A stretch of 64,000 nt of DNA, from NCBI RefSeq assembly GCF_008326345.1, contig NZ_BJEN01000001.1, positions 558,001 through 622,000 on the forward strand. Reading direction: 5' to 3'. The position numbers and the translations under genes were made by a program. How positions within the stretch are numbered: position 1 is the stretch's first letter; every line of letters starts with the position of its first letter. Of this stretch, positions 12,666 to 21,193 are shown piece after piece. The notes under the pieces were generated by a model. It saw only the letters and a program-made list of their open reading frames with translations. It ran no database searches and had not been told where the DNA came from. The DNA is from Cutibacterium modestum (GTDB lineage Bacteria > Actinomycetota > Actinomycetes > Propionibacteriales > Propionibacteriaceae).

Positions 12666-15012
12666 TCACGATCGTGTCTGCACCAGCACGGACCCACCAT
12701 TGCGGGCCAACAGCACCGTCCCTTCAAGATCAGTGCGATGCAGCTGCATTCCCATCCGCTTAGCCAGAGATACTGCCCTGTACGAGGGATGCCCGAAGGA
12801 ATTTCCTTGGCCCGCAGACGCCACCGCTACGCTTGCCCCGGTTGCTGCCCAGAAGCCCTCGTCTTGACGGGCCGATCCGTGATGAGGCAAGACGAGGACA
12901 TCACTGGTCAGGTCCGTGCCTTTGGCCAAAACGTGGTGCTGTTCCTCAGCTTCGGCATCTCCAGGAAACACAACTCTCAACCCGTTAACCGTCGCCTTGA
13001 TCACAACTGAGGAATTGTTCTCGGCGGCAGGCTCCTCCCCCCAACTCATCCGTACCAGTCTCTGAAAGCTGGGCTCCTCCCCAGAGCTCAAGTGTCGCCG
13101 TTCCGGCCGTCATGACCTGGCCCGGACTAGCCACGATCACCTTGGCACCCAACTGAGCAGCCGTTTGCGCCACTCCCTTAGCTGACCACTCTGGGGACGC
13201 CAGCTGGGACACGACGATGGCTCTCGTTGGACCATGATCACAGATGGCGTTGAGGCCGTCGACATGATCGGCGTGGAAGTGGCTGAGGATCACCACCGGC
13301 ACCTGGGCGACGCCGAGGTCATCCAAGCAACGACTCAATCTGTGCGGATCCGGTCCAGTGTCGACGACGACAGCCTCATCCGGGCTGGCACGCACCAGAG
13401 CCGCACTGCCCTGACCGACGTCACAGATGGCCACCTGCCACTGCCCCGGCCAGCCCGGGACGGGAGGACGCACGACTGTCGCTGTTAAAACTGCTAGCCC
13501 CGCGAGCGCAGTCAACCACGGCCTCGTCAAGACCGCCGGAGTGACCAAAGCCAATCCCACACATATCCCGGCCAGCACCCCGACGGCCCATCCGCCTGCT
13601 GGCCACCTGAGTAGACCGGACGGAGCTTTAGCACCGACGTGAGCTATCCAGATGATCGGCTGGACGCAGCATCCGGCAAGCCGCCCGAACGGCGCCCCCA
13701 ATGGCGGCCAGATCAAGGCGAAAAGCCCGGTCGCCATCCCTAGCGCCGAGGCCAGAGGTACGAAGGGAGCAGCCGCGAGATTAGCGATGAGTCCGGTCGT
13801 GCCAGCCATCCAGGTGATGACAGGCTGAGTCGCCAACTGGGCTGCCCATGGCACTGTTATGGTTGTCGCTAGCCACGTTGGCGCCCACGCCATCGCAGCC
13901 GACCATGGTTGGGCCCACCACAAGATGCCAGCCGTTGCACAGACCGACAGCCAGAAACCCACTGATCTCACGAGCCATGGATCGATGAGCATCAGCCCAG
14001 TCACCGCGACGGCTAAGGTCCTGATGCCACCGCGCCAGTCGAAGGCGACCCCCGTCGCAGCCACAGTGACCACTCCCATCGCAGCTGCTCTTACCACCGA
14101 GGCTTCGGTCCGACACACCACCACAAATACAACGACACCAGCCACCGACAGCACCCTTAGCCCTCGCCGCTTCAGGCCGCACCACGCACCTATCCACCAC
14201 AGCAGGACCGTCGTAGAGGCAAGGTTGGCCCCAGAGACGGCCATGAGGTGGGTCAACGCCGTCACCCGAAAATCCTCGGACATCTCCTCAGAAACCGCTG
14301 CGGTATCCCCCACAACAATCGATGGCACGATGGCTCGTTGCCCCTTTGGACATCCCGAAACAGCACTGACTAGACCGGCGCGAAAACGATTGACCCCACG
14401 GTCAAGGGGCCCGGCCGGTACAACGACCCTCGGCGGGGACCGCAACTTCAGTACTGCTGCTTCAGCCCGCCCTTCCCGTGGCGGAGTTAGAAGGCCCTGC
14501 ACCTGAATCTGCTGCCCAACGGTTACCTTCGCGGCAGGGTCCGACATTGACCCCGACGCCACGACAACAACCTTCACCGACTGATTAATAGCCTGGCCTT
14601 CTGCGACGATGCGATGGGCTGCCAGAGTGATCATGACAGTGCGCCCTCCCGAACCACTCCCCTCGAATGTCCGCGGATCGACGGTAACCCGACCTCTCAC
14701 AGTCACCGAAACTCCTTCCTGGGCAAGCTCAGCGACGCCAGTGTGGTGGACAACGTGGTCGCGTATCCCGGCGCTCACGAGGATTGTCAACCCCACCGCA
14801 GCGGCTACAACAACCAGCCACACCTTGCGCCCCACCGCGATCATGCCTGCGACAAGGCATCCGATTCCGGCACCAATAACCGTCCAACGATGACCGCCGG
14901 TGCCGACGGCAGCCATCCCACACGCGGTGATAGCCACCGGAATCATGCGTACATCGGGGGTTGCGAAGGCCTGGCGTTGACGGCCCTCACGATGAGGTTT
15001 AGACCGTGACAT
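12666..15012 (-). pseudogene. comEC: ComEC/Rec2 DNA-uptake channel, split by a frameshift
   Basis: Codons from 15012 down to about 13040 encode the DUF4131, competence and metallo-hydrolase parts: hydrophobic helices throughout, AVSGANLASTTVLLWW, and LSHFHADHVDGL (metal-binding HxHxDH). The frame then runs off at 12985 in unrelated residues. The expected C-terminal part of the beta-lactamase-like domain is found in the next frame (13091-12666): NNSSVVIKATVNGLRVVFPGDAE and VLVLPHHGSA. The frames meet at a run of six G (minus strand) at 13037-13042; deleting one G restores a single protein of about 780 residues. ComEC forms the inner-membrane channel for transforming DNA. The gene overlaps comEA by 14 bases. 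Confidence 0.85.
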
Positions 15013-15841
15013 GCGGCTTGATCTTTTCGAAGGTCTTCGCTCCGATCCCAGATATTTCCCGCAGCTGGTCTACGGAGGCGAACTGTCCGTGTTCCTGACG
15101 CCACGCCATGATCTTGCCCGCCATCACTGGACCGACTCCGTCGATCGTCTCAAGCTCACTCTGATTCGCGGTGTTGAGATTAACCTGAGCCTTACCGCTG
15201 CCTGGAGCCGCTGCTACGCCGCCACTTCCCGACCCTCCGGCAACCCCCGGCGAGCCGCCAACGCTGTGGTCGGGTGGGGTCACTGTCCCGTCTCCACCTG
15301 CGGGGACCCATACCTGGCAACCGTCACAGACTGGGGCAGCAAGATTGAGACGACCGGGGTGGGCACCCGAGCTTGTTCCGCCCGCAGCTCCGATGGCATC
15401 AGCGACGCGGGCGTCGGGATTAACCGTATACACACCGGGATGCTTCACCCGTCCGGCCACGTGAACCTGGATGGGTGCGGTCGTCGTTGCGGTGGCGGCC
15501 GGGAGAGCGGCAGGAGTGGTGCCCTCAGACCGCACCTCGGACTCACTGGTCTCTCGACCGGGCATAGTTGTACCTTCAGGCACCGTCGACACCGCCATAG
15601 CGCCCGATGGCGCTTCGGTAGGTTTCGAGCGCATCAACACAACAGCGATGACAGACAGCACCACAACGAGCAGAATCCCCACTGCTGAGGCGTGTACTCG
15701 GGTCACGGCCCGTCGAGGAGTTGAAGTCTCCTCGGGTGCCGGTTCCTCCTCTACTGGAGTCGCCGAATGTCGGGGCCCCAGGTTGCGGGCAGGCAGCCGT
15801 GCCATGAGGTCCTCAAGACGCTCTCGGTAGTCATCACTCAT
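14999..15841 (-). CDS. comEA: ComEA-type DNA-binding competence protein
   Basis: The 280-residue protein has a cytoplasmic N terminus, one membrane helix at about residues 51-69 (AVGILLVVVLSVIAVVLM), a SLBB-like segment (IQVHVAGRVKHPGVYTVNPDARVADAI) and a C-terminal helix-hairpin-helix domain (VNLNTANQSELETIDGVGPVMAG and ISGIGAKTFEKIKPHV). ComEA binds incoming double-stranded DNA outside the membrane and hands it to ComEC. The ATG at 15841 is preceded by AAGGT only one base away. The promoter region is nearly identical to that of the DUF4192 gene at 20.5 kb. Confidence 0.93.
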   Translation of the reverse strand: MSDDYRERLEDLMARLPARNLGPRHSATPVEEEPAPEETSTPRRAVTRVHASAVGILLVVVLSVIAVVLMRSKPTEAPSGAMAVSTVPEGTTMPGRETSESEVRSEGTTPAALPAATATTTAPIQVHVAGRVKHPGVYTVNPDARVADAIGAAGGTSSGAHPGRLNLAAPVCDGCQVWVPAGGDGTVTPPDHSVGGSPGVAGGSGSGGVAAAPGSGKAQVNLNTANQSELETIDGVGPVMAGKIMAWRQEHGQFASVDQLREISGIGAKTFEKIKPHVTV

Positions 15842-15900
15842 ACCTTCAGTTGTCGTCGGGACAACCGAATTTCGCCAGGCAATTTCAAACCTGTGGATAA
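15839..15900 (-). promoter_or_regulatory. comEA copy of a shared promoter module with a DnaA-box sequence
   Basis: Read on the minus strand the block starts with a perfect TTATCCACA (15892-15900), then GAAATTGC, ATTCG, GACGACAACTG, AAGGT and the comEA ATG. It matches the block at 20497-20559 at about 85 percent of positions by eye, with almost the same spacing between box and ATG (51 and 52 bases). It also contains a small hairpin GTTGTC/GACAAC (15849-15865). Confidence 0.6.
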
Positions 15901-15942
15901 CACGGCGCGGCGGGAAGTCTGCTATTCACAGGCTCGCCACAG

Positions 15943-19476: not shown

Positions 19477-20499
19477 CTACGCCGATAAGTTGGATTCCTC
19501 ACCCACTTGCTCCTCCAGAAGGGGGTGTGCAATCACTGTTGGATCATGATTCATGACGTCCCACAATTTGGGCGGCACGAAAGCGTCAACAATGACTGTC
19601 AGCGCAGCAGGCAAGTCAGCTGTTCCCGCCATAAATTCGCATCGACGTGCGCACACCGCTGCCACTGCCCCCTCACCGCTCAACCATCCCGCCAGCCCAC
19701 AGAGAGACAGTGGAGCTGGCGCCATCCGATCCGGGATGATCTCGACTGCTCGACTCCATATCGCGAGCCAGCGCGATGCGTCGGCCCGCTCCATCGACAT
19801 CCACAGTCTGCGCGCTATGCCCGGACGCTGGACGGCTACCGCTAGCTCCGTCACAATCGCATCGTCGGTTTCGTCGCGAGACTCAAAGAGGACCTGGCAC
19901 CTGGTCTTCACGGCGTCGTCCTCCTTGCGGCAGAGCCGCCGCCGGGCACTAGCCAGGAGTCTGCGGGTATCTGGATCACATGTGCGCCCAGGGCCGGAGA
20001 GCGTATTGACAAGGCTGGTGCGACTAGGCAGAACAGTCAGCCCGCGATAGACCGCTTCGGCTGCGATGGACGGATCTGGAACAAAGCGGTGATTCTCGCC
20101 ACAGCCCTGCTCATCACAAAAGATGCTGCGCCAATATTCACCGTCAGTCCACGCAGCATCACCAATATTCATGCTTCCCAACGCTTGGACGGCCGACATC
20201 AGAGTGCCCATGGCGCGATCTTGATTGTTACTGAACGCTAAGACGACCGTTCGACCTCGCCCTGCCAGGGGGCCGACCCGTGATGCGAAGGCATCCATAG
20301 TCACGGCAGATTCGAGGTCGTCGAGATCGGCTCGGGCAACGAAGCCCTGGCATGCGGCACCGTCGTCGGCAACGATGAGGAGCAGGCTCTCAGTAGGCTG
20401 AAACCCCAAGAGGTACGGTGCCAAAGTCACCGCTTCTTCGACGGTCCTGACGGTCAATGGATCACGGCCATCAGTGGTGGAGGAATGTAGTGCTGTCAT
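19477..20499 (-). CDS. DUF4192 domain protein, function unknown
   Basis: About 340 residues from the ATG at 20499 (MTALHSS). The DUF4192 signature follows at once: VRTVEEAVTLAPYLLGFQPTESLLLI, with RADLDD and later LPSRTSL and ASRWLAIWSRAVEIIPD-like helical segments. The C-terminal half is helical and Cys-bearing (AAVCARRCEF). The family is widespread in actinobacteria and uncharacterised. The start choice rests on the GGAGGT directly before the ATG and on the promoter block shared with comEA; a longer in-frame start at 20541 would run through that block. The shared promoter suggests co-regulation with DNA uptake. Confidence 0.8.
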   Translation of the reverse strand: MTALHSSTTDGRDPLTVRTVEEAVTLAPYLLGFQPTESLLLIVADDGAACQGFVARADLDDLESAVTMDAFASRVGPLAGRGRTVVLAFSNNQDRAMGTLMSAVQALGSMNIGDAAWTDGEYWRSIFCDEQGCGENHRFVPDPSIAAEAVYRGLTVLPSRTSLVNTLSGPGRTCDPDTRRLLASARRRLCRKEDDAVKTRCQVLFESRDETDDAIVTELAVAVQRPGIARRLWMSMERADASRWLAIWSRAVEIIPDRMAPAPLSLCGLAGWLSGEGAVAAVCARRCEFMAGTADLPAALTVIVDAFVPPKLWDVMNHDPTVIAHPLLEEQVGEESNLSA

Positions 20500-20559
20500 A
20501 CCTCCAGTTGTCGTCTCGACCCCGCCGAATCCGTCAAGCAATTTCGAATCTGTGGATAA
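20497..20559 (-). promoter_or_regulatory. DUF4192 copy of the shared promoter module with a DnaA-box sequence
   Basis: The minus strand reads TTATCCACA (20551-20559), GAAATTGC, ATTCG, GACGACAACTG, GGAGGT, ATG. It matches the comEA block nearly throughout. A second box-like site, TTGTCCACA, lies 35 bases further upstream (20594-20602), close to the divergent gene at 20639. Confidence 0.6.
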
Positions 20560-20638
20560 GTCTCATCTGCGCCATCTCGTCTTGAAGCCAAGCTGTGGAC
20601 AACATCATCCGTCGACAACAACGTACAGTAGAGCCACC

Positions 20639-21193
20639 ATGAGCCAACCGCCTGACATCAGCCAGTACCAGCCACCAAAACGCCACAGCGGTTGGATCGC
20701 CGTCATCATCGTGGCAGCGATCATCATCGCACTAGTCATCATTGCACGCCGGGTCACCAGCGAGCCAGTGAATCCCGTCGCGCCGACACCATCCTCAATT
20801 GCGACGTCTACGTCTTCTACTCCAACGTCGATCCCGGCATCAGCTACTGCGGTCGCCTCCTCGTTACCGTTCTCCTCGAAGGACGACGACACCGAGGGAC
20901 GGTGGTCGATCGACAACGTGAAATGGGGACCTAACACCGTCACTCTCACGGTGACCATTGAGGTCACCAGGGGCTCTCTGACCGACTACACCTTCTTCAT
21001 CATGGAAAACGAGTCGACCGATATCCATCAGGCGAGCCAACCCTCCACAGGCTCTCTCGGCGCTGACGTATCCCAAGGCCACAAAGTTCACGGCACGATC
21101 ACCATCGACTGCCCACGGACTAACGCCACCGTCATGCTCACTCACAGATCGGGGATGTCTTCCCCCATTTCGGCATTAACGATCAAGGCGTAG
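20639..21193 (+). CDS. membrane-anchored protein with Ser/Thr/Pro linker and extracellular domain
   Basis: From the ATG at 20639 the protein has 184 residues: a short cytoplasmic tail (MSQPPDISQYQPPKRHSG), one membrane helix (WIAVIIVAAIIIALVIIA), a linker of about 40 Ser/Thr/Pro/Ala residues, and a domain of about 100 residues rich in beta-prone Thr/Val (NTVTLTVTIEVTRGSLTDYTF). The domain resembles small immunoglobulin-like extracellular domains, but no family is recognised. A longer in-frame start at 20474 would cross the shared promoter block and is unlikely. It is divergent from the DUF4192 gene, so both may share control elements. Confidence 0.7.
   Translation: MSQPPDISQYQPPKRHSGWIAVIIVAAIIIALVIIARRVTSEPVNPVAPTPSSIATSTSSTPTSIPASATAVASSLPFSSKDDDTEGRWSIDNVKWGPNTVTLTVTIEVTRGSLTDYTFFIMENESTDIHQASQPSTGSLGADVSQGHKVHGTITIDCPRTNATVMLTHRSGMSSPISALTIKA

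Follow-up and report, generated by a model that had tools for sequence, protein, structure and literature searches.

The window analysed here, a 64,000-nucleotide stretch of the Cutibacterium modestum genome, raises the question of why comEA and the gene for a DUF4192 protein are preceded by much the same sequence. The sequence-only reading had placed the two copies at 15839-15900 and 20497-20559, and both were found there, on the minus strand. At comEA (14999..15841, minus strand; SLBB and helix-hairpin-helix domains, Pfam and NCBIfam) the module starts with a 10-bp proximal com box, TTATCCACAG (15891..15900), which begins 59 nt before the ATG, and continues with a conserved middle block, TGGCGAAATTC (15867..15877; consensus TGRCGRAWTT), in the −35 region, and with a −10-like element, CGACAACT (15848..15855), which stands 6 nt before the ATG and is conserved in Cutibacterium and Acidipropionibacterium. 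A degenerate distal box of opposite orientation lies upstream (15922..15932, plus strand); it reads CCTGTGAATAG on the minus strand and is of the CCTGTGGACAAC type in relatives. The comEC gene (12985..15012, minus strand; Pfam) overlaps comEA and is presumably on the same transcript. The gene for the DUF4192 protein (19477..20499, minus strand; 340 aa, Pfam) has the same parts in the same order on the minus strand: the proximal box TTATCCACAG (20550..20559) beginning 60 nt before the ATG, the conserved middle block TGACGGATTC (20527..20536), and CGACAACT (20506..20513) again 6 nt before the ATG. Its distal box, TTGTCCACAG (20593..20602, minus strand), is in tandem with the proximal one and 43 bp upstream of it, the norm for the set described below being 33-34 bp. 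A gene for a small predicted membrane protein (20639-21193) diverges from DUF4192, with the distal box about 37 nt before its start, and may share the control region. In several relatives (L004-L011) the inverted distal box of comEA lies within a GCGGCGAG...CTCGCCGC hairpin, where leuS transcription seems to end.

The likeness of the two modules was borne out by alignment, at a lower figure than the approximately 85% first given: a global alignment had 51 identical columns of 64 (80%). Exact copies of TTATCCACA occurred in the window only twice, at the two modules. When the first 32 nt of the comEA module were scanned without gaps across the window, the DUF4192 site scored 26 and the runner-up 20; for the last 30 nt the values were 22 and 19. 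An exact pattern search of the whole genome found TTATCCACAG-N(2-6)-GAAATTGC at the comEA and DUF4192 sites only. The distance between the 9-mer of the box and the ATG was 50 nt for comEA and 51 nt for DUF4192, and AGGT stood immediately 5' of the ATG at both genes, as had been noticed. As the ATG is the likely transcription start, this AGGT is likely a spacer and not a Shine-Dalgarno site.

About 60 bp of nearly identical text at sites 4.6 kb apart might also have arisen by recent duplication, or by chance, without regulatory meaning; the rest of the 2.63-Mb genome bears on this. We used a promoter model built from sequence only and trained on 24 comEA and DUF4192 promoters of Cutibacterium and Acidipropionibacterium, including those of the two query genes and none of the other genes named below. 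The held-out matches, with E values from 8e-12 to 3e-6, lay before a DUF4244 pilin gene, the ParA/TadZ-like first gene of a Tad operon that also encodes T2SSE and T2SSF proteins, a second ssb gene (ssb2), an M23 peptidase gene and three nuclease-like genes of the DUF559/MTES type, including a short one; recA gave a weak match (1e-3). The promoters shared one layout: TTRTCCACAG at roughly 59 nt from the start, then a TGRCGRA block, and finally CGAYAACT 6 nt before an ATG or GTG. This last distance held in the members that look leaderless, and ssb2, recA, the M23 gene and yraN (see below) carry a leader or start later. CGAYAACT was absent from the promoters of recA, where the −10 is of the TANNNT type (TACAGT), and of a third sigma-factor gene. 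TTRTCCACAG occurred 35 times in the genome versus 8 times for the reversed pattern, and by our reading about 20 of the 35 sit in promoters of the set. Two weak matches (C2:85341, E 0.013; C1:714699, E 0.15) were dropped, as they lacked a box plus CGAYAACT. That a model of comEA and DUF4192 finds held-out promoters of pilus, ssb2, M23 peptidase, nuclease-like and recA genes supports the earlier proposal that the two genes belong to one regulon. In this assembly the ParA/TadZ-like gene (G000:C2:361094-362185; L129:6094-7186) encodes 206-215 aa, compared with 351-352 aa in relatives, and is followed by a second frame; it may be frameshifted. The third DUF559-like gene with a com promoter (L072:1260-1451, minus strand) encodes 63 aa, compared with 293-300 aa in relatives (L167, L176).

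The same elements were also found in other arrangements. A search at dprA, whose inspection had been suggested, led to a mirrored promoter some 2 kb upstream of that gene, where CTGTGGATAACTGAATAATC followed by CGACGACAACTG precedes yraN; yraN, comM and dprA we take to be one operon, from their usual gene order. Of the eight other genus genomes, seven had the mirrored yraN layout, slightly altered in some of them, and genome G111 had reverse boxes at yraN with CGAYAACT not evident. A gene for a SAF (CpaB-like) protein had the mirrored layout as at yraN. The third sigma-factor gene, directly downstream of dnaG in C. modestum, had an inverted box pair upstream in the genus Cutibacterium and in Acidipropionibacterium.

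Comparison of related genomes showed that the element is kept at its member genes beyond chance. The comEA/DUF4192 model gave 6-17 matches in each of nine genus genomes, before the same types of genes wherever the matches were read. Promoters had one or two boxes, and within the genus these were usually in tandem, 33-34 bp apart; of 24 promoters checked, 23 had a distal box, the commonest spacing being 34 bp. There were 46 family loci in which comEA or DUF4192 had both a box and an in-frame start, and the box-to-start distance was 58-61 nt in 45 of them (raw counts from related species). Other genera also kept the DUF4192 box, and some of the loci of Nocardioides and its relatives had TCCACAG near the same distance. 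For the class we took 40 upstream stretches from comEA matches, of which 38 were usable; TCCACA lay 57-63 nt before an in-frame start in 18 of these 38 (a raw count, relatedness included), compared with a mean of 0.34 and a maximum of 3 for 59 permuted 6-mers. When a TANNNT −10 was required 5-8 nt before the start and the frame rule was looser, 20 of 38 had a TCCACA box 59-62 nt upstream (again a raw count with relatedness included). The box was not seen before comEA in some lineages, for example in the two f37 genomes and the one f20 genome that were read. CGAYAACT served as the com −10 only in Cutibacterium and Acidipropionibacterium, with TANNNT elsewhere in the class. One genus genome, G035, contained an unexpected expansion of eight nuclease-like paralogues, each behind a com promoter (L173, L174, L176, L179-L182, L184).

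These comparisons make duplication or chance a very improbable source of the two modules: the element also precedes about ten further genes, and throughout the family its distance is fixed before both comEA and DUF4192 while the sequence between the conserved blocks drifts. A module scattered before many unrelated genes, or one found at these two only by duplication, had been named as grounds for giving up the proposal, and the comparisons showed neither. As judged from sequence, we consider it about 80% probable that the module serves as promoter for a regulon of natural competence, that is, DNA uptake and recombination, with leaderless mRNAs for most members. One element precedes several genes of DNA uptake and transformation, and the promoter appears to serve about a dozen genes in all, most of them established or probable genes of DNA uptake and recombination. 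Against this reading stand the nuclease-like genes and the M23 peptidase, which do not belong to the classical competence genes, the lineages in which no box was seen before comEA, and the lack of CGAYAACT at recA and the third sigma gene. An activator bound at the boxes, upstream of RNA polymerase, would switch on the whole set together, and in most members the start codon would itself be the transcription start, giving leaderless mRNAs, which are frequent in Propionibacterium acnes (PMC3848588).

The arrangement resembles the competence regulons of Bacillota (ComK of Bacillus subtilis, ComX/SigX of streptococci), in which one element likewise precedes pilus, comEA/comEC, dprA, ssb and recA genes. 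The box differs from theirs; here it is like a DnaA box, the pilus is of the Tad/Flp type and the mRNAs are apparently leaderless. There is also a likeness in gene content to Micrococcus luteus, whose competence genes (comEA/EC, two tad clusters, the SAF protein Mlut_14650 and the HTH_17 protein Mlut_14660) are of the same classes; its transformation depends on Tad (Flp) pili and on the SAF/CpaB-like protein (PMC4322843, PMC8467076). A homologue of ComK had been looked for in M. luteus without success (PMC4322843), we found no description of a cis-element or regulon in PMC8467076 and PMC12849477, and the competence regulon and its upstream regulatory cascade were stated in 2026 to be unknown (PMC12849477). 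No prior description of the element was found in the open-access papers searched, one of which names DUF4192. With the shared promoter, the way these bacteria control natural transformation becomes open to testing: an element fixed in position names candidate regulon members and can serve as bait for the regulator, and DUF4192, the DUF559/MTES-type nucleases, the M23 peptidase and the third sigma factor join the candidate competence proteins. A broader scheme, which we regard as tentative and somewhat less probable than not, would place competence throughout the Actinomycetes under sites that resemble DnaA boxes. Uptake would then be linked either to the replication initiator or to a dedicated activator with a similar specificity; Cutibacterium would have gained a box-controlled sigma factor, and DUF4192 and the nuclease-like proteins would be new competence proteins.

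The identity of the 9-mer with the DnaA box, part of the sequence-only reading, is real as a sequence match, TTRTCCACA being the consensus, and DnaA is one candidate for the activator of the boxes. If DnaA itself were the transcription factor, competence would follow replication status, with a direct link between DNA uptake and replication. A universal protein suits an element spread across a class, and boxes of this sequence surround dnaA in C. modestum; near parA in the oriC region, moreover, a tandem pair of TTATCCACAG stands 33 bp apart (G000:C2:81248-81290; L074/L075), which is nearly the 33-34 bp of the com promoters. At some sites in B. subtilis, DnaA is found together with Rok, a repressor of competence (PMC11841835). 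The com box nevertheless differs from a DnaA box in its fixed promoter geometry and in a constrained tenth base. Of 52 com boxes in the family, 51 had G at position 10, versus 200 of 364 (55%) TCCACA sites near dnaA, counts that come from related sequences, so that a p-value would overstate the contrast; in lineage f4 both com boxes had T at this position, whereas its boxes near dnaA had A, G, G and C. When base preferences of com boxes and boxes near dnaA were compared, position 10 differed in the family and the rest overlapped (small samples of related sequences). As a test between DnaA and another factor, position 10 is suggestive only. On balance we regard DnaA as a doubtful candidate, clearly below even odds. 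To a dedicated competence activator, with a specificity close to that of DnaA and binding the tandem TCCACAG sites, we give even odds: the constraint at position 10, the fixed tandem spacing and the two fixed orientations relative to the −10 all argue for such a protein, and against it, no candidate gene was found.

Two known kinds of regulation were considered and set aside. PafBC/RecA-NDp promoters have TTGTCRNNN about 8 nt before TANNNT, and the com promoters do not fit this type, having more than 30 nt between the box and the −10. The HTH_17 protein reported to influence com expression in M. luteus (PMC8467076) was rejected as the binder of the box, C. modestum having no likely counterpart, as the sole match above the cut-off in this genome was an HTH protein encoded beside moaA-like and modA-like genes.

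The third sigma factor bears on how the −10 is read. In Cutibacterium and Acidipropionibacterium its gene carries boxes, and these are the same genera in which the com −10 is CGAYAACT; in a two-step cascade, the box-controlled sigma factor would then possibly read CGAYAACT there. An alternative sigma gene under the same boxes, as seen in the sequence, recalls ComX. The protein meets no NCBIfam equivalog cut-off, and its region 2.4, the reader of the −10, is changed relative to SigA. Homologues occur throughout the family and are clearest in the two genera; those in other genera include box-less ones, which counts against a competence sigma of the ComX/SigX kind, as does the absence of CGAYAACT from the gene's own promoter. 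Furthermore, a ComX-type system would have a sigma-specific −10 at com genes throughout the group, and the com −10 was the ordinary TANNNT across the rest of the class and at recA; we argue that the ancestral form therefore uses the main sigma factor. The correlation between the sigma factor and the −10 may also reflect a single evolutionary event. That the third sigma factor is a competence sigma with CGAYAACT as its −10 is thus a possibility to which we assign a little less than even odds. In other genera of the family a CGGTGTTGTC-type motif often stood upstream of the third sigma gene in place of the box pair (L213-L231).

The sequence-only reading had also suggested that DUF4192 takes part in DNA uptake, and the comparison bore this out to the extent that DUF4192 appears to be a member of the regulon; this membership, as judged from its promoter, is the main evidence for such a role. 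The predicted structure of the protein was confident (mean pLDDT 87.6), with a RadC-like N-terminal domain and a helical C-terminal half. Foldseek gave no match below E 0.001 for the full model; with the N-terminal domain alone it gave RadC (probability 0.93, E 0.02), and a fold comparison of this predicted domain gave RadC 2qlc a moderate Z score of 8.6 over 113 residues at 3.3 Å, the next entry scoring 5.1. DUF4192 thus resembles RadC in its JAB/MPN fold and differs from it in sequence (7% identity), in the extra helical half and in the metal-binding His/Asp motif, which is not conserved. No histidine conserved in at least 18 of 24 homologues was present in the N-terminal domain, and we therefore did not class DUF4192 as RadC proper. 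The radC gene is a late competence gene in streptococci. DUF4192 is perhaps an enzymatically inert, RadC-like partner in DNA processing.
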